Program-made: the position numbers and the translations under genes
Source of the DNA: Vicinamibacteria bacterium
Lineage (GTDB): Bacteria > Acidobacteriota > Vicinamibacteria > Vicinamibacterales > UBA8438
DNA: 46,817 bases
Direction of reading: 5' to 3'
Assembly (NCBI GenBank): GCA_022821235.1
Contig: JAJEEA010000516.1
Location: 1 to 46,817, forward strand
The notes under the pieces: model-generated
The model's input: the letters and a program-made list of their open reading frames with translations, nothing else
Told to the model about the DNA's origin: nothing
Database searches by the model: none
Part shown: one piece after another, positions 27,484 through 33,408 of the stretch
How positions within the stretch are numbered: position 1 is the stretch's first letter
Layout of the letters: every line of letters starts with the position of its first letter

Positions 27484-27658
27484 TCCAGCCGAATAACTCG
27501 CTGGCACGCTTCAGGAGCGCCTGCAGATTCCAGTCAGCACCCTCCTCTCGCCAGATGCGGCGACTCCGTAGATCCGCCACATGGACGGATCGCTTCCGCC
27601 CGTCCTTGCTCCAATCGGCGGAGATGAAGAAGACCGGTGTAGTCACGACGTGAGTCAC
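27401..27658 (-). pseudogene. Truncated third gene of the VapBC-type operon (RNase H-like N-terminus?)
   Basis: A GTG at 27658 overlaps the VapC stop (GTGA), the same coupling used inside the operon. The first ~54 residues look genuine: VFFISADWSKDGRKRSVHVA, then DLRSRRIWREE and WNLQALLKRASEL. The D-x-S-K-D-x(n)-SVHVADL pattern resembles the first beta-hairpin of RNase H-like folds such as DUF429. At about 27484 the frame runs antisense into the TonB receptor's 3' end and loses any protein character. The gene appears to have been cut off when the receptor gene and the operon were brought together. Family assignment is tentative. Confidence 0.5.
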
Positions 27659-28056
27659 CCCATGCGAACGTGCTGCACGACGACACCCAGCCCCGGTGCC
27701 CTGGAGAGCCTGCCGTCGGCCGTCAGCAGGATGGCGTCGTTGGCGCGCGCGGCGGCTACGTAGAGGGCATCGTACGCACTGACGTTGTGGAGATGCCGCC
27801 AAGCCAAGCGGGCCAGCGTTCGATTGGGAAGACGGTCCACTGGCCAGGCAGCCAGGTCGTTCAGAGCGGTGAGCGCAAGCCCCTCATCGAGGCGACCGCC
27901 CAGCACCGCCTCGCGTAGCGCCGACAGCACTTCCGCGTCCAGCAGCTCCGGTGCCATCAGGGCCGCGCGCTCGACGAGATCGGCCAACGCCAGCCCGATC
28001 GGCGTCTTCAGGAGGTACTCGACCGCCACCGACGCGTCGATGACGTATCGGGTCAC
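27655..28056 (-). CDS. PIN-domain toxin (VapC/FitB type)
   Basis: A 133-residue PIN-domain ribonuclease, the toxin of a type II pair. Acidic residues are in place: D7 (YVIDASVAVEYL), E in LLDAEVLSALRE, D in SAYDALYVAAARAND and D in LLTADGRLSRAPG. Such toxins cleave RNA, often tRNA or rRNA, when released from the antitoxin. The start is a GTG overlapping the antitoxin stop (GTGA). Its own stop in turn overlaps the GTG of a truncated third ORF. Length and spacing are typical. Confidence 0.9.
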   Translation of the reverse strand: MTRYVIDASVAVEYLLKTPIGLALADLVERAALMAPELLDAEVLSALREAVLGGRLDEGLALTALNDLAAWPVDRLPNRTLARLAWRHLHNVSAYDALYVAAARANDAILLTADGRLSRAPGLGVVVQHVRMG

Positions 28057-28292
28057 CGCGATCCCAACTCGCGGTCCCGGAGGGCGCGCGCCTCGGCGAT
28101 CAGCGTCGCGGCATCGACGCCGAGGTCGGTCTCAGGCCGCTGAGCCCACCGCTTGCGCCACTCCCACGCGTCCAACTCGCGCTCCACGGCGGCGACCACA
28201 GCCGCGCTCAGGGTGCGGTTCGTCTCACGGGCGAAGCAGCGCAGACGATCGTGGAGCGAGTCGGGTATGTTCTTCACCTGCAGATGGGCCAT
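28053..28292 (-). CDS. Ribbon-helix-helix antitoxin (FitA/VapB type)
   Basis: A 79-residue antitoxin. The N-terminal HLQVKNIPDSLHDRLRCFA followed by ETNRTLSAAVVAAVERELD is the Arc/FitA ribbon-helix-helix, which binds DNA as a dimer; the C-terminal part (WEWRKRWAQRPETDLGVDAA) should wrap the toxin. The start at 28292 is chosen over the track start because the ribbon strand begins there and a taccat box stands exactly six bases upstream, predicting a leaderless mRNA. The inverted repeat overlapping that box is the likely autoregulatory operator. Confidence 0.85.
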   Translation of the reverse strand: MAHLQVKNIPDSLHDRLRCFARETNRTLSAAVVAAVERELDAWEWRKRWAQRPETDLGVDAATLIAEARALRDRELGSR

Positions 28293-28322
28293 GTCATGAT
28301 GGTAGCATGACGTTGGCATGAC
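28293..28322 (-). promoter_or_regulatory. Operator-like inverted repeat overlapping a leaderless promoter
   Basis: gtcatg (28293-28298), seven bases, catgac (28306-28311), then a further catgac at 28317-28322. The 28299-28304 spacer reads taccat on the minus strand, six bases before the antitoxin ATG, so antitoxin dimers bound here would cover the -10 box. Confidence 0.6.
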
Positions 28323-28442
28323 GGGCGTCGGCAACTGCCTCTCGGACGCCATGACGACGGCCCGCTGCCGCCGCGCAAGCCAAGCTCGCGCGTGCTGCGT
28401 ACGCATGCCCTGACGCGCGCCCCGGAACACGGAAGCGGGTGG

Positions 28443-28448
28443 TAGGAT
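28443..28448 (+). promoter_or_regulatory. -10-like box, leaderless start of the NHL-repeat gene
   Basis: taggat ends seven bases before the ATG at 28456; no Shine-Dalgarno. Confidence 0.5.
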
Positions 28449-28455
28449 ACCGGCC

Positions 28456-29508
28456 ATGTTGACTCATCTCTCGGCCCGCATCACGCTCGTGGTGGCCGTC
28501 CTGGTGGGCGTGACCGTCGGGGTCACCACGCAGCCGCTGCCCAACCCGTACCGCCTCGTCGACGAGTGGCCGAACCTGCCGTCGCACATGAACGGCGGGA
28601 GATGGGGCGAGACCATCGGCGTCGACCGCGACGCGGACGGGAACATCTGGGTCTTCCACCGCTGCTTCAACAACCAACCGCCGGGGGCCGCCACTTGCGT
28701 GGGGCGGGACGACGACCCGCCGGTGGTGAAGTTCAGCCCCGACGGCGAACTCCTCGACAGTTGGGGCGAAGGGGTGTTCGCGGCCCCGCACGGCTTCCAC
28801 GTCGACCCCGAGGGCAACTTCTGGGCGACCGACTACAACGGGAGCGAGACGGTGCTCGGCATGGACGCCGGCGGGCGCGGGCACCAGGTCTTCAAGTTCA
28901 GCCCGGACGGGGAGATCCTCATGACCCTCGGCCGGGCCGGGGTCGCGGGCAACGGGCCGGACACCTTCGACCGGCCGACCGACGTCGCGGTCAACGCCGA
29001 CGGCGACATCTTCGTCACCGACGGCCACGGGCCGAACAACCGAGTGGTGAAGTTCGACCGGGACGGCCGCTTCCTGATGACGTGGGGAGGGCCGGGCGAC
29101 GGGCCGGGCGAGTTCGACCAGCCCCACACCCTCACCCTGGACAGCCGCGGGCGGGTGTTCGTCGGGGACCGTTCGAACGGCCGCGTGCAGATCTTCGAGC
29201 CGGACGGGACGTTCGTCGCCGAGTGGCGGCAGTTCGGGCGGCCGAGCGGCATGTTCATCGACGAGGACGACGTGCTCTACGTCACCGACTCGACCTCGAA
29301 CGCGACGAACAACCCCGGCTTCGACCGCGGCATCTACATCGGCAGCGCGGTGGACGGGACGGTCCACGCCTACATCCCGGATCCGGATCTCGACCGGCAG
29401 GACGAGCTGCGCATCTCGGGGGCCTCGGGCATCACCGCCGATCGCGAGGGCAACGTGTACGCCGCCGACGTCGGCCCGCAACGGATCCGCAAGTACGTCA
29501 AGCAGTAG
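28456..29508 (+). CDS. Exported NHL-repeat beta-propeller protein
   Basis: A 350-residue protein with an N-terminal signal segment (ITLVVAVLVGVTVGVTTQ) and six-bladed NHL repeats: IGVDRDADGNIWVFHR, VVKFSPDGELLDSWGEG, HGFHVDPEGNFWATDYNG, PTDVAVNADGDIFVTDGHG, HTLTLDSRGRVFVGDRSNG and GITADREGNVYAADVG. The layout resembles the peptidylglycine alpha-hydroxyglycine lyase (PAL)-like group that is abundant in Acidobacteriota. Without the metal-binding histidines checked, catalytic activity is not claimed. It starts leaderless and is divergent from the toxin-antitoxin operon. Confidence 0.85.
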   Translation: MLTHLSARITLVVAVLVGVTVGVTTQPLPNPYRLVDEWPNLPSHMNGGRWGETIGVDRDADGNIWVFHRCFNNQPPGAATCVGRDDDPPVVKFSPDGELLDSWGEGVFAAPHGFHVDPEGNFWATDYNGSETVLGMDAGGRGHQVFKFSPDGEILMTLGRAGVAGNGPDTFDRPTDVAVNADGDIFVTDGHGPNNRVVKFDRDGRFLMTWGGPGDGPGEFDQPHTLTLDSRGRVFVGDRSNGRVQIFEPDGTFVAEWRQFGRPSGMFIDEDDVLYVTDSTSNATNNPGFDRGIYIGSAVDGTVHAYIPDPDLDRQDELRISGASGITADREGNVYAADVGPQRIRKYVKQ

Positions 29509-29787: not shown

Positions 29788-31383
29788 TCACATGCCCCAG
29801 ACGGTGACCGGCGCAGCGCCGCCGGCCGACTCCGGGCGGCGGAAGATCTTCTCCTCCCACGTCCTGGACGGCGAGCGGTCGAAGACGACCAGGTGCCCCG
29901 ACTCCGCCCCGCAACGGTCCATGTAGCCCCGCGTCTGGTCGACGCCCTCGCGTATCGTGCGCTCCAGCCCGTCTCGGCGCACCTTGCACTCGACGACGAA
30001 CCGCCGGTCGCGATCTCCGAGCGGCCAGACTATCAGCAGATCGACGCGGCCCCGGCCCAGGGCGTACTCCCGTTCGATGCGGCCGCCCCCGTTCGCGACC
30101 TTCTGGAGGTACGCCTGCAGCAGCAGTTGGGGCCCGGCTTCCCGGTACCGGTCGAAACGTTGCGTCCAGTGTTCCGAGTGCTCGCGGAAGAAACGCTGGA
30201 ACGCCTCCAGCAGCCGGTCCACGTTCAGGCCGCCGGCGGCGTCCACGTACGACGACGTCTCCGCCTCGACGTCGTCCTGCGCCGCCCACGTCAGCTCGCG
30301 CGGAATCACCTCCGCGTATATCGGGTTGGCGATGCGCTTGGCGTCGTCCCGCGCCAGCAGGCCGAGGTCGCGTGCGTACTCGACGTCCCGGTCCCGTTCC
30401 GCGTAGCTCCCCCGGCCGGCGGCGCCGATCAGCATGGGCGCCACCACCCGCCGCACGCGCTCCTCGCGCAGCTTGTCGGCCAGATTGTCCAGGTGCGTCA
30501 CGCGGGCCTGGATCAGCCGTTCCTGGGCGTCCAGGATGTCGCCCTCCGCGATCGGACGGGAACGGTCCCGGCCCGCCGCCGTCTCGAAGCACGCCTCCCG
30601 GCACAGGGCGTTCACCAGCCACGGCTGCCCCGCGGTGCGCGTGCAGACCGCCTCCAGCGCCGCCGACGTGAATGCCTGCCCGGTCTCGGCGGTGTGCTGT
30701 TCCAACAGCGCCCGCGTCTCCGCCCCGCTGAAGTCGCCCAGCCGCAACGACTTCGACTTGACGTTGAACGCGCTGCCGCCGAGCACCAGCGCGTTCCGCG
30801 CCCCGGACCGAATGCGGTAGTCCCGCACGTCCCGCACGCCGCACAGGACGACGCTGTGCGGGAAGCTCCGCGGCCGCTGGTCGTAGCCGGCCCGCAACTG
30901 CCGCAGCACCGACAGCAGCGTGTCGCCGACCAGCGTGTCGATCTCGTCGATAAGCAGCACCAGCGGACGCGGATCGGCCTCCGCCCACCGGGAGAGCACG
31001 TCGATCAGCGCGCCATCCGCGCCCTCGCTCTCCAGCGCCGCCGCCCGCAGGCGGTCCGGCGTCTCGTCACCCAACGTCAGCCGGGCCCGACGGGCGAGCT
31101 CGCCCAGCATCGCCCGCATCGCCCGCGCGGTGTCCTCGCGCGCCGCCTGCCCGACCTCGAAGTTCGCGTAGACGCAGCGATAGTCCCCCGCCGCTCCTGC
31201 GTTCAGCAGATCGCGGAGGGCCAGCAGCGCCGACGTCTTGCCCGTCTGTCGCGGGGCGTGCAACACGAAGTACTTCTGGCTCCGCACCAGAGCCAGCACG
31301 TCGTCGAGATCGATCCTCGTCAGCGGCGGGATGCAGTAGTGGTCCCCCGCACGGACCGGACCCTCGGTGTTGAAGAAGCGCAT
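29788..31383 (-). CDS. AAA-like ATPase with C-terminal PD-(D/E)XK nuclease, copy 1
   Basis: A 531-residue protein. The N-terminus MRFFNTEGPV-x-DHYCIPPL precedes Walker A APRQTGKT (43-50); Walker B is PLVLLIDEIDTLVGD near 140; a sensor-like region follows. The C-terminal ~90 residues form a PD-(D/E)XK nuclease fold: RGRVDLLI with D448 and FVVECKV with E465/K467. ATPase-nuclease fusions of this kind are widespread in mobile or expanded families; a DNA-processing or defence role is suspected, not proven. The start is taken as the second ATG (31383), because cacaat stands seven bases before it and the same arrangement precedes copy 2. A near-identical paralogue lies immediately upstream in tandem. 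Confidence 0.87.
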   Translation of the reverse strand: MRFFNTEGPVRAGDHYCIPPLTRIDLDDVLALVRSQKYFVLHAPRQTGKTSALLALRDLLNAGAAGDYRCVYANFEVGQAAREDTARAMRAMLGELARRARLTLGDETPDRLRAAALESEGADGALIDVLSRWAEADPRPLVLLIDEIDTLVGDTLLSVLRQLRAGYDQRPRSFPHSVVLCGVRDVRDYRIRSGARNALVLGGSAFNVKSKSLRLGDFSGAETRALLEQHTAETGQAFTSAALEAVCTRTAGQPWLVNALCREACFETAAGRDRSRPIAEGDILDAQERLIQARVTHLDNLADKLREERVRRVVAPMLIGAAGRGSYAERDRDVEYARDLGLLARDDAKRIANPIYAEVIPRELTWAAQDDVEAETSSYVDAAGGLNVDRLLEAFQRFFREHSEHWTQRFDRYREAGPQLLLQAYLQKVANGGGRIEREYALGRGRVDLLIVWPLGDRDRRFVVECKVRRDGLERTIREGVDQTRGYMDRCGAESGHLVVFDRSPSRTWEEKIFRRPESAGGAAPVTVWGM

Positions 31384-31390
31384 GACCTGC

Positions 31391-31396
31391 ATTGTG
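31391..31396 (-). promoter_or_regulatory. -10-like box of AAA-nuclease copy 1
   Basis: Minus-strand cacaat, seven bases, ATG at 31383. The paralogue has gacaat at the same distance. Confidence 0.45.
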
Positions 31397-31500
31397 GCAA
31401 CCCCGTCGCGCCTCCGCGCGACGGACGCTACCTCAGTGAACTTCGTTGTCCAACTCCATCATTCCTGAACCCGATCCTGTCGCGGACTCAGGCAAGACGG

Positions 31501-31518
31501 GCAAACGATTTCGTTTGC
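31501..31518. other. Perfect 8-bp inverted repeat between the two AAA-nuclease genes
   Basis: gcaaacga-tt-tcgtttgc, 44 bases past the stop of copy 2 and 105 bases before the box of copy 1. AT-rich against its surroundings and without a T-run; it could be an operator or a terminator stem. Confidence 0.45.
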
Positions 31519-31561
31519 AGGTGTCGTCGAGGATCGAGCCGACAGCCCCGCACGGTCGACG

Positions 31562-33160
31562 TCACATGCCCCAGACGGTGACCGGCGCGGCGCCTTCGTC
31601 GGCCGGCGCGTCGCGGCGGAAGATCTTCTCCCCCCACGTCCTGTCCGCCGAGCGGTCGAAGACGATGAGGTGGCCCGACTCCGCCCCGCAACGGTCCATG
31701 TAGCCCCGCGTCTGCTCGACCCCCTCGCGCACCGTGCGCTCCAGGCCGTCGCGCCGCACCTTGCACTCGACGACGAAGCGGCGGGTGCGGCCCCCGTGCG
31801 GCCACACGATCAGCAGGTCCACGCGTCCGCGGCCCAGGGCGTACTCGCGCTCGAGACGGCCTCCCCCGTTCACCACCTTCTGCAGATACGCCTGCAGCAG
31901 CAGTTGCGGGCCGGCCTCCCGGTACCGGTCGAAGCGCTGCGTCCAGTGCTCCGAGTGCTCGCGAAAGAACCCCTGGAAGTCCGCGAGCAGCCGGTTCACG
32001 TCGAGCGCGCCGTCGGCAAGCACGTACGACCCGGTCTCCGCCTCGACGTCGTCCTGCGTCACCCACGTCAGCTCGCGCGGAATCACCTCCGCGTAGATGG
32101 GGTTGGCGATGCGCTTCGCGTCGTGCTGCGACAGCAGGCCGAGGTCGCGCGCGTACTCCACGTCGCGGTCGCGGTCGGCGTAGCTCCTCCGATCGGCGGC
32201 GCCGGTCAGCATCGGCGCCACGACCCGCCGCACGCGATCCTCGCGCAGCTTGTCGGCCAGGTCGTCCAGGTGCGTCACGCGGGCCAGGATCAGCCGCTCC
32301 TGGGCCTCCAGGATGTCGTCCGCGGTGATGGCGCGGGCGCGGTTCCGGCCCGCCTCGCTCTCGAAGCACGCCTCGCGGCACAACGCGTTCACCAGCCACG
32401 GCTGCCCCACCGTCCGCGTCCAGATCAGCGCCAGCGCGTCTTCGGTGAACGCCTGTCCGGTCTCGGCCGTGTGTTGCGCCGGCAGCGCCCGCATCTCTGC
32501 CTCCGTGAAGTCGCCCAGTCGTAACGACTTCGACTTGATGTTGAACGCGCTGCCGCCGAGGACGAGCGCGTTCTGCGCGGTGGAGCGGATGCGGTAGTCG
32601 CGAACGTCCCGCACGCCGCAGAGAATCACGCTGTGGGGGAAGCGGCCGGGCCGGTCGGGGTAACCGGCGCGGAGCTGCCGCAGCACCGACAGCAGCGTGT
32701 CTCCCACCAGCGCGTCGATCTCGTCGATCAGCAGCACCAGCGGCCGCGGGGCGGCCCGCGCCCACCGGGACAGCACGTCGATGAGGGCGCCGTCGGCGCC
32801 CTCGGTCTCCAGTGCCGAGCCCCGCAATCCGTCCGGCGTGTCGTCGCCCAACGTCATGTGAGCCTGGCGGGCCAGCTCGCCGAGCAGGGCCCGCATCGCC
32901 CGCGCCGTGTCCTCCCGCGCCGGCTGGCCGATCTCGAAGTCCGCGTATACGCAACGGAAGTCGCCCGCGGCGCCGCTGTTCAGCAGATCGCGCAACGCCC
33001 GCAACGCCGAGGTCTTGCCCGTCTGCCGCGGCGCGTGCAGAACGAAGTAGGTCTTGTCCCGCACCAGGTCGAGCAGCTCTTCCAGATTCACCCGCTCCAG
33101 CGGGGGGATGCAGTAGTGGTCCGCCGCCACGACGGGACCCGCGATGTTGAACTTGCGCAT
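31562..33160 (-). CDS. AAA-like ATPase with C-terminal PD-(D/E)XK nuclease, copy 2
   Basis: A 532-residue tandem paralogue of the preceding gene, roughly 80% identical by eye. Same architecture: DHYCIPPLERVNLEELLDLV, Walker A APRQTGKT, Walker B LVLLIDEIDALVGD, and the nuclease motifs GRGRVDLLIV and FVVECKV. The differences are scattered substitutions; no catalytic residue has been lost, so both copies may be active. The start at 33160 follows gacaat by seven bases; the longer track ORF to 33352 instead includes a stray fragment of a third copy. The two copies are separated by 169 bases and could arise from a simple tandem duplication followed by divergence. Confidence 0.87.
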   Translation of the reverse strand: MRKFNIAGPVVAADHYCIPPLERVNLEELLDLVRDKTYFVLHAPRQTGKTSALRALRDLLNSGAAGDFRCVYADFEIGQPAREDTARAMRALLGELARQAHMTLGDDTPDGLRGSALETEGADGALIDVLSRWARAAPRPLVLLIDEIDALVGDTLLSVLRQLRAGYPDRPGRFPHSVILCGVRDVRDYRIRSTAQNALVLGGSAFNIKSKSLRLGDFTEAEMRALPAQHTAETGQAFTEDALALIWTRTVGQPWLVNALCREACFESEAGRNRARAITADDILEAQERLILARVTHLDDLADKLREDRVRRVVAPMLTGAADRRSYADRDRDVEYARDLGLLSQHDAKRIANPIYAEVIPRELTWVTQDDVEAETGSYVLADGALDVNRLLADFQGFFREHSEHWTQRFDRYREAGPQLLLQAYLQKVVNGGGRLEREYALGRGRVDLLIVWPHGGRTRRFVVECKVRRDGLERTVREGVEQTRGYMDRCGAESGHLIVFDRSADRTWGEKIFRRDAPADEGAAPVTVWGM

Positions 33161-33167
33161 CCCCTCC

Positions 33168-33173
33168 ATTGTC
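33168..33173 (-). promoter_or_regulatory. -10-like box of AAA-nuclease copy 2
   Basis: Minus-strand gacaat, seven bases, ATG at 33160; matches the arrangement in copy 1. Confidence 0.45.
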
Positions 33174-33214
33174 GCACCGCGGCGCGGGTCGTCACCGCAC
33201 GCGCCCCGGCACGA

Positions 33215-33245
33215 CGCGTTCACCAGCCACGGCTGGGTCGCCGGC
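33215..33245 (-). repeat. Remnant of a third AAA-nuclease copy
   Basis: On the minus strand this reads TQPWLVNASCRGAC, matching the internal GQPWLVNALCREAC of both full copies; the DNA core gcgttcaccagccacggctg is identical. No other part of a third gene is recognisable around it. Confidence 0.65.
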
Positions 33246-33408
33246 CGGCGCTTCGCGACCGGAGGAGTAATTCCCGTTCCGCACGTCCGCCTCCGTTCAC
33301 CGAACCGGAGATGCGATAGACTCACGCCCGCCCGAAGGCGGCCCGATGACAAGCGGCACGACGTTTCTCCGCGCTCCTACCGACGCCTCCGCGTCGACGC
33401 GCTGACCC

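Follow-up and report, generated by a model that had tools for sequence, protein, structure and literature searches.

The closest described precedents for the locus reported here are two groups of genes that encode PD-(D/E)XK nucleases. The DUF1703 proteins are composed of an AAA-ATPase_like module (PF09820) and a PDDEXK_9 nuclease (PF08011) (Knizewski 2007, PMC1913061), and in Cardinium cCpun they have undergone an expansion to 25 recombining paralogues, some of which include predicted signal peptides (PMC6387759). The Rpn genes are gained and lost as single genes, have variable ends and no terminal repeats, form tandem arrays and show anti-phage activity, and autonomous transposition was rejected for them (Zhong et al., PMC10327210). 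The Rpn nucleases (RpnA) promote RecA-independent recombination, and independent insertions at one locus have been suggested (Kingston et al., PMC5350276). Here we describe a tandem gene pair and the relic of a third copy located in a 46,817-nucleotide contig of a Vicinamibacteria bacterium (JAJEEA010000516.1, assembly GCA_022821235.1; this whole stretch is referred to as the window). The pair codes for putative AAA+ ATPase-nucleases of a new family with a known mode of behaviour: its members are gained and lost one gene at a time, at intergenic sites that stay the same. We give about an even chance to the explanation that the pair and the relic are members of a dispersed, fast turning-over family of ATP-gated DNA nucleases directed against foreign DNA, of which a stock of variants is kept by selection.

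The gene pair and its place among AAA+ nucleases

The listed open reading frames (ORFs) of the pair, 29788-31392 (gene 1) and 31562-33169 (gene 2), are both on the minus strand, comprise 534 and 535 residues, respectively, and are separated by a 169-bp spacer (31393-31561). The alignment of the family (37 full-length relatives) and a conserved upstream block indicate the fourth codon of each listed ORF (31383 and 33160) as the true start; the N-terminal pattern of the family is MR(F/K)FN(T/I)xGPV. The two products share 81% identity (83.7% at the DNA level), which agrees with the first-pass annotation of two genes, about 80% identical and 169 bp apart, with all motifs intact. Both include Walker A (APRQTGKT), Walker B (LLIDEID), the sequence GQPWLVN and the nuclease set E..D..ExK..Q, which in gene 1 corresponds to E437..D448..E465-x-K467..Q483 when numbered from the MRFF start. 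All 37 copies have the Walker A K49, the Walker B D146 and Q483, and 34 of them have the nuclease residues D448, E465 and K467. Three long copies (L056, L061 and L081) have lost one active-site residue of the nuclease (D, E or K) and retain the Walker motifs. The last residues, P-V-T-V-W-G-M followed by the stop codon (29788-29811 in the window, for example), are kept across most Vicinamibacterales copies, and this conservation suggests a functional C-terminal tail.

Above the Pfam cut-offs the family matches generic AAA models only, AAA_22 in both window proteins (P0001 and P0002) with weaker matches to AAA_16 and AAA_35, and the C-terminus shows sub-threshold matches to PDDEXK_9 and NucS_C. 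No meaningful match to the window proteins was found in NCBIfam, and a sequence search of PDB returned no relative; the family is without a solved relative. An AlphaFold2 model was obtained with a pLDDT (predicted local distance difference test) of 80.6, and its top Foldseek matches were AAA+ proteins, many of them with winged helices (ORC/Cdc6, RuvB, PABY2304). The best whole-model neighbours, the archaeal-type ATPases of the ATPase_2 family (PF01637; PABY2304, PDB 2qen) and the ORC/Cdc6-type AAA+ proteins, share with the model an AAA+ lid followed by a winged helix. However, the match to 2qen has a TM-score of 0.41/0.57 and 13% identity and the matched structure includes no nuclease domain, while PF01637 was not reported for P0001 or P0002; at E<=0.001, ATPase_2 matched 4 of 18 family members and PDDEXK_9 matched 3 of 18 relatives. 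The predicted secondary structure of the nuclease consists of a helix (419-434), three strands (438-443, 449-458 and 461-471), a second helix (476-494) and a final strand (498-504). The family protein is thus modelled as an AAA+ ATPase probably followed by a winged helix, a label given because the fold neighbours have winged helices, and then by a PD-(D/E)XK nuclease.

In architecture the nearest precedent is DUF1703: in both families a helical linker joins an AAA+ module to a PD-(D/E)XK nuclease at the C-terminus, and both show lineage-specific expansions, intragenic recombination of paralogues and truncated copies. By membership tests based on sequence, however, the window genes are outside DUF1703. 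P0001 and P0002 scored 11.7 and 11.1 bits against PF09820 (curated cut-off 26.1) and 17.6 and 17.7 bits against PDDEXK_9 (curated cut-off 25.5), and a PF09820 search of their own genome did not list them. BLASTP gave no meaningful match between the window family and a DUF1703 protein of this genome whose gene adjoins a family copy; the HHalign match between the two families was weak and confined to the nuclease half; and the motifs differ, with Walker A RPRRFGKS and GQQVYNP in DUF1703 as against RQTGKT and GQPWLVN here. The own genome (G000) also has an expanded set of about 9-11 DUF1703 (PF09820) genes, some of them split, the nearest being L036 (G000:C488):2080-3675. One of them directly adjoins a truncated copy of the window family, and both families have thus multiplied within one genome.

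In behaviour the nearest analogy is to Rpn (YhgA-like, PF04754; COG5464), a likeness in mode and not in membership. In both, a single gene for a PD-(D/E)XK protein occurs as numerous, variable copies, with single-gene turnover, tandem arrays and variable regions. Terminal repeats or target duplications have been seen in neither, and the ends are variable in Rpn and appear so here. Rpn proteins, on the other hand, have no AAA+ module and include an intragenic C-terminal antitoxin made from an internal start, whereas the window family has an N-terminal ATPase and a predicted winged helix; PF04754 was not among the Pfam matches of the window proteins up to E = 1. Unlike transposons and insertion sequences, the window family has no terminal inverted repeats or target-site duplications that could be seen.

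Gain, loss and dispersal of copies

The gene order at the window locus is NHL-repeat gene, family copies, SLC13-type transporter. In two genomes of genus g2 (G018 and G023) the locus is empty, the probe ends of the flanks being 302 and 259 bp apart. One copy is found between both flanks in G002 and G010, and one beside the transporter in G026, where the synteny is one-sided as the NHL side falls at a contig end. Two copies plus the relic are present in G000 and in its sister genome G001. Other positions behave alike. The C367 copy of G000 is absent in both congeners, its place being taken by plain intergenic DNA in G002 and by an unrelated small ORF in G001, and the relic at C493 has no counterpart in G001. 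The C5 copy is absent in G002; in G001 an internal deletion of 1457 bp, joining at a short shared sequence, has left of it the first ~55 bp and the last ~92 bp. The repeated gain and loss of copies proposed in the first-pass annotation is therefore borne out by the empty, single and double states of the locus, by the C5 deletion and by the many relics, which in relatives include N-terminal, internal and C-terminal pieces.

The relic of the third copy is located upstream of gene 2 and in frame with it. It had been taken as a 31-bp fragment; its origin is upheld by an E value of 6e-12 against family genes (the best of 181 other window segments reached 5e-7) and by its presence in G001, but its length is 39-51 bp, namely 39 bp at 90% identity to gene 2 or 51 bp at 86% to a genus-g2 copy. 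In the 6.6-Mb own genome the core 20-mer of the relic occurs inside family members and in the relic only (backwards control, 0). A recurrent functional 31-mer, either a recognition site or a regulatory element, was ruled out, as the genome has a single occurrence of the motif outside the genes of the family.

A recent tandem duplication as the source of the pair was also ruled out: at 83.7% DNA identity the two genes are more diverged than the flanking genes of G000 and G002 (~90%), their divergence being similar to the g1-g9 distance (81-87%), and gene 2 includes a foreign N-terminal tract. In the tree, both genes belong to a nine-member clade that also includes the single copies found in G026 and G010, and gene 2 is not the sister of gene 1. 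Either an old pair has lost one member in G002, G026 and G010, or a diverged copy joined gene 1 in the ancestor of G000 and G001.

Copy numbers, which rest on sequence searches of genome contigs, vary widely. The own genome (6.6 Mb in 552 contigs) has small relics and about eight large copies, of which six are full-length ORFs, and the near-closed 6.1-Mb chromosome of G002 has eight dispersed copies. Rather than a single copy without variation in number, each of the 11 carriers found among 60 relatives is multicopy (5-17 matches); they belong to three genera of one family, and no copy was found in 32 genomes from other families of the order. The nearest named relatives are Vicinamibacteria/Vicinamibacterales metagenome-assembled genomes (MAGs), which judging from their isolate names are probably sponge-associated; the window belongs to the same group. 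Elsewhere the distribution is patchy, with members in Latescibacterota, Caldilineales, Blastocatellia, Polyangiaceae, Synergistales, Schekmanbacteria and Aminicenantes and more distant homologues on plasmids, among them those of cyanobacteria such as Pseudanabaena and a few from elsewhere. Some genomes are especially rich in copies: an Aminicenantes MAG gave 65 matches and the Polyangiaceae MAG G060 gave 31. Phage records and viral contigs yielded no family member. Tandem arrays recur across several phyla. A Blastocatellia MAG has three head-to-tail copies with mutually alike spacers of 67-68 bp (G066:C620, L175:1-4552), a clear tandem amplification.

In G060, a case of recent dispersal, about 20 copies with 88-93% DNA identity are found in different surroundings, and their similarity stops 0-50 bp from the ORF. 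The flanks of these copies (L155-L174) include a few common modules in mixed combinations, among them a GGTGAACTTCACCCG palindrome and TCGAGTTTGACTCGAAGTCTTACG, which are possibly genomic repeats used as landing places. Neither terminal inverted repeats nor target-site duplications were seen in the Vicinamibacterales copies, the G060 copies or the C367 site, and the Vicinamibacterales copies have no common sequence past the stop codon. The ends of the copies appear variable, though they are blurred by fast-changing intergenic DNA, and because of this blurring the lack of target duplications is weak evidence. In G002, two recent duplicates 14 kb apart (G002:C1:880967-882487 and 895167-896690; L077 and L078) show a relaxed ratio of nonsynonymous to synonymous substitution (dN/dS) of 0.37 and an altered C-terminus, RGVMVWRL. 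The same genome has three tandem GC-rich repeats of ~150-190 bp (CCACGATTCCGC..GGCGGTGGCGGAGCGTGGGATGGTCCTG) between the NHL gene and the gene 1 orthologue (L072:5190-5900), and this repeat also adjoins other G002 copies.

Selection and exchange of modules

The first-pass annotation read the turnover of copies as a sign of diversifying selection, with substitutions that might cluster in a recognition region. This part was not sustained. By the Nei-Gojobori method, orthologues have a dN/dS of 0.14-0.18, and a comparison of the two window genes gives 0.27, values that indicate that both genes are functional and constrained and that rule out diversifying selection by point change. The differences between the two genes are spread along the protein and follow the family-wide variability, with the exception of residues 1-35 (ratio 0.80), which is explained by recombination in the N-terminus of gene 2. 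Over its first ~40-45 codons gene 2 is 86-88% identical to a C518-type paralogue and 75-77% to gene 1, and over codons 61-120 the relation is reversed; as judged from these identities, gene 2 is a mosaic. Two further segments, s2 (from Walker A to Walker B) and s4 (the probable winged helix), exist in alternative types, and all four combinations of s2 and s4 types occur across the copies. The trees of the segments conflict: holding the winged-helix types together on the first-segment tree was rejected by the approximately unbiased (AU) test with p = 1e-7, and the converse with 1e-55. The conflicting trees together with the purifying dN/dS values lead us to conclude that variation comes mainly from swapping and not from positively selected point changes.

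A -10-like hexamer, NA[CT]A[AC]T, is found 4-9 nt before the start in 19 of the 37 copies, non-independent orthologues included, compared with a mean of 0.19 and a maximum of 3 in shuffled sequences (custom test), and several copies have ATGACA or GTGACA 17 nt upstream of the hexamer. We propose that this block, which is suggestive of leaderless transcripts, would make such copies units of ~1.65 kb with their own promoter. The features of the pair are listed in Table 1. A VapBC-like toxin-antitoxin pair (window 27655-28457), consisting by eye of a PIN-domain protein and an Arc/FitA-like antitoxin, lies 1.5 kb from the genes.

Table 1. Coordinates in the window of the two genes, their segments and the relic.
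Feature	Coordinates	Strand	Remarks
Gene 1, putative AAA+ ATPase / winged-helix / PD-(D/E)XK nuclease	29788..31383	-	531 aa, start MRFFNTEG; listed ORF from 31392
Gene 1, nuclease active-site stretch E437..D448..E465-x-K467	29983..30075	-	
Gene 1, module s4, residues 296-375, probable winged helix	30259..30498	-	two types, reassorting independently of s2
Gene 1, module s2, residues 60-128 (MRFF numbering), Walker A to B	31000..31206	-	alternative types, reassorting between paralogues
Gene 1, Walker A, APRQTGKT	31234..31257	-	
Conserved block upstream of gene 1	31384..31396	-	-10-like CACAAT seven nt before ATG
Gene 2, paralogue of gene 1	31562..33160	-	532 aa, start MRKFNIAG; listed ORF from 33169
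Gene 2, recombinant tract, first ~40-45 codons	33026..33160	-	C518-like
Conserved block upstream of gene 2	33161..33173	-	-10-like GACAAT seven nt before ATG
Relic of third copy, TQPWLVNASC, family codons ~249-265	33197..33247	-	also in sister genome G001

Defence, selfish spread or ordinary duplication

A role in defence or against mobile elements is plausible by analogy, and we hold it at about one half. ATP binding would gate the nuclease and the winged helix would bind DNA, so that different combinations of modules could differ in recognition or in triggering; the cellular role may be an Rpn-like restriction of foreign DNA or an abortive response. Selection would then favour keeping a changing stock of variants. 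The spread could be passive, through horizontal transfer and through recombination that is ectopic or illegitimate, and breaks made by the nuclease may help it. The sequences show a decay of old copies by internal deletion, purifying selection on intact copies, and recombination through which paralogues exchange the N-terminus, the Walker A-B segment and the winged helix.

Several results weigh against this explanation or the parts on which it is built. PADLOC models gave no match to the window proteins up to E = 1, which separates them from the known anti-phage systems. The neighbours of family copies are mostly metabolic genes and transporters, and a defence-island context is weak, since no PADLOC model had a match in more than one of 63 neighbours; ten larger neighbours had no PADLOC match. 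The winged helix is derived from the model and the AAA+ relatives, with no family match; a standard sigma-70 consensus scan found no promoter; and the mosaic counts, like the promoter counts, include orthologues that are not independent. Because intergenic DNA diverges fast, gain and loss are not always separable and the boundaries of the copies are undefined.

An unlikely alternative is a selfish single-gene element, in which the ATPase-nuclease breaks DNA and repair copies the gene, by homing or by an Rpn-type promotion of recombination, with no benefit to the host. The very high copy numbers and density of relics speak for it, as do the near-identical dispersed G060 copies bounded by the ORF, the presence or absence of single genes at fixed sites and the placement of copies in tandem with resident ones in several phyla (three in G066), and the RecA-independent recombination promoted by RpnA provides a precedent (PMC5350276). 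However, neither terminal repeats nor target-site duplications were seen, nor were there defined ends, a situation shared with Rpn, where Zhong et al. rejected autonomous transposition, and the orthologues at fixed sites are under purifying selection across the genus (dN/dS 0.14-0.18), which suggests a use at the level of the host. A bolder version, which we regard as improbable, is that the family represents an undescribed class of single-gene mobile elements: the AAA+-winged-helix-PD-(D/E)XK protein would itself cause its short gene to be copied into further intergenic sites, in many cases next to a copy already there, and the recombination so provoked would reshuffle the modules.

We disfavour, as doubtful, the ordinary tandem duplication of a host gene of DNA metabolism (a repair or recombination nuclease) followed by neutral decay of paralogues with no conflict involved. 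Such an origin would account for the purifying selection on both copies, the tandem arrangement common to G000 and G001 and the lack of an association with defence, yet the locus is empty in genus g2, the family is absent in all other sampled families of the order, copy numbers swing widely, modules are extensively shuffled, the distribution across phyla is patchy and, as mentioned, the two genes differ more from each other than the flanks differ between G000 and G002 (83.7% against ~90% identity), which speaks against a recent simple duplication. Very unlikely is a secreted or contact-dependent nuclease that acts against the host or rivals, as was proposed for the DUF1703 proteins of Cardinium, whose expansion of recombining paralogues includes some with predicted signal peptides (PMC6387759). 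Many carriers are MAGs that, from their isolate names, come from host-associated settings, largely sponge and termite; but the family is also found in groundwater, soil and cyanobacterial plasmid genomes, and its N-terminus, a conserved MRFFNTxGP stretch that immediately precedes the ATPase, did not resemble a signal peptide on inspection. An assembly artefact, in which strain variants or chimeras within MAGs mimic tandem paralogues and relics, is extremely unlikely in spite of the fact that the window and most relatives are MAGs and many copies fall at contig ends, for the pair and the relic recur in the independent MAG G001, the near-closed G002 chromosome has its eight dispersed copies and a divergence of 19-40% between copies is more than strain variants would show.

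The window genes thus define a distinct, wide but patchy AAA+-nuclease family that is unnamed in NCBIfam and PADLOC and is seen in Pfam through generic AAA models only. Few single-gene PD-(D/E)XK families (Rpn, DUF1703) show defence-like turnover and recombination and are not transposons, and the window family adds one to their number. It also offers material for tests: paralogues that are mosaics and whose swap points in the ATPase and winged-helix segments are defined, loci that are empty in some genomes and hold one copy or two in others, and the G060 genome, in which about 20 copies are recent. Should the family serve in defence, many systems still uncharted could be drawn from it; should it be selfish, it would be a minimal mobile element with an unusual nuclease.

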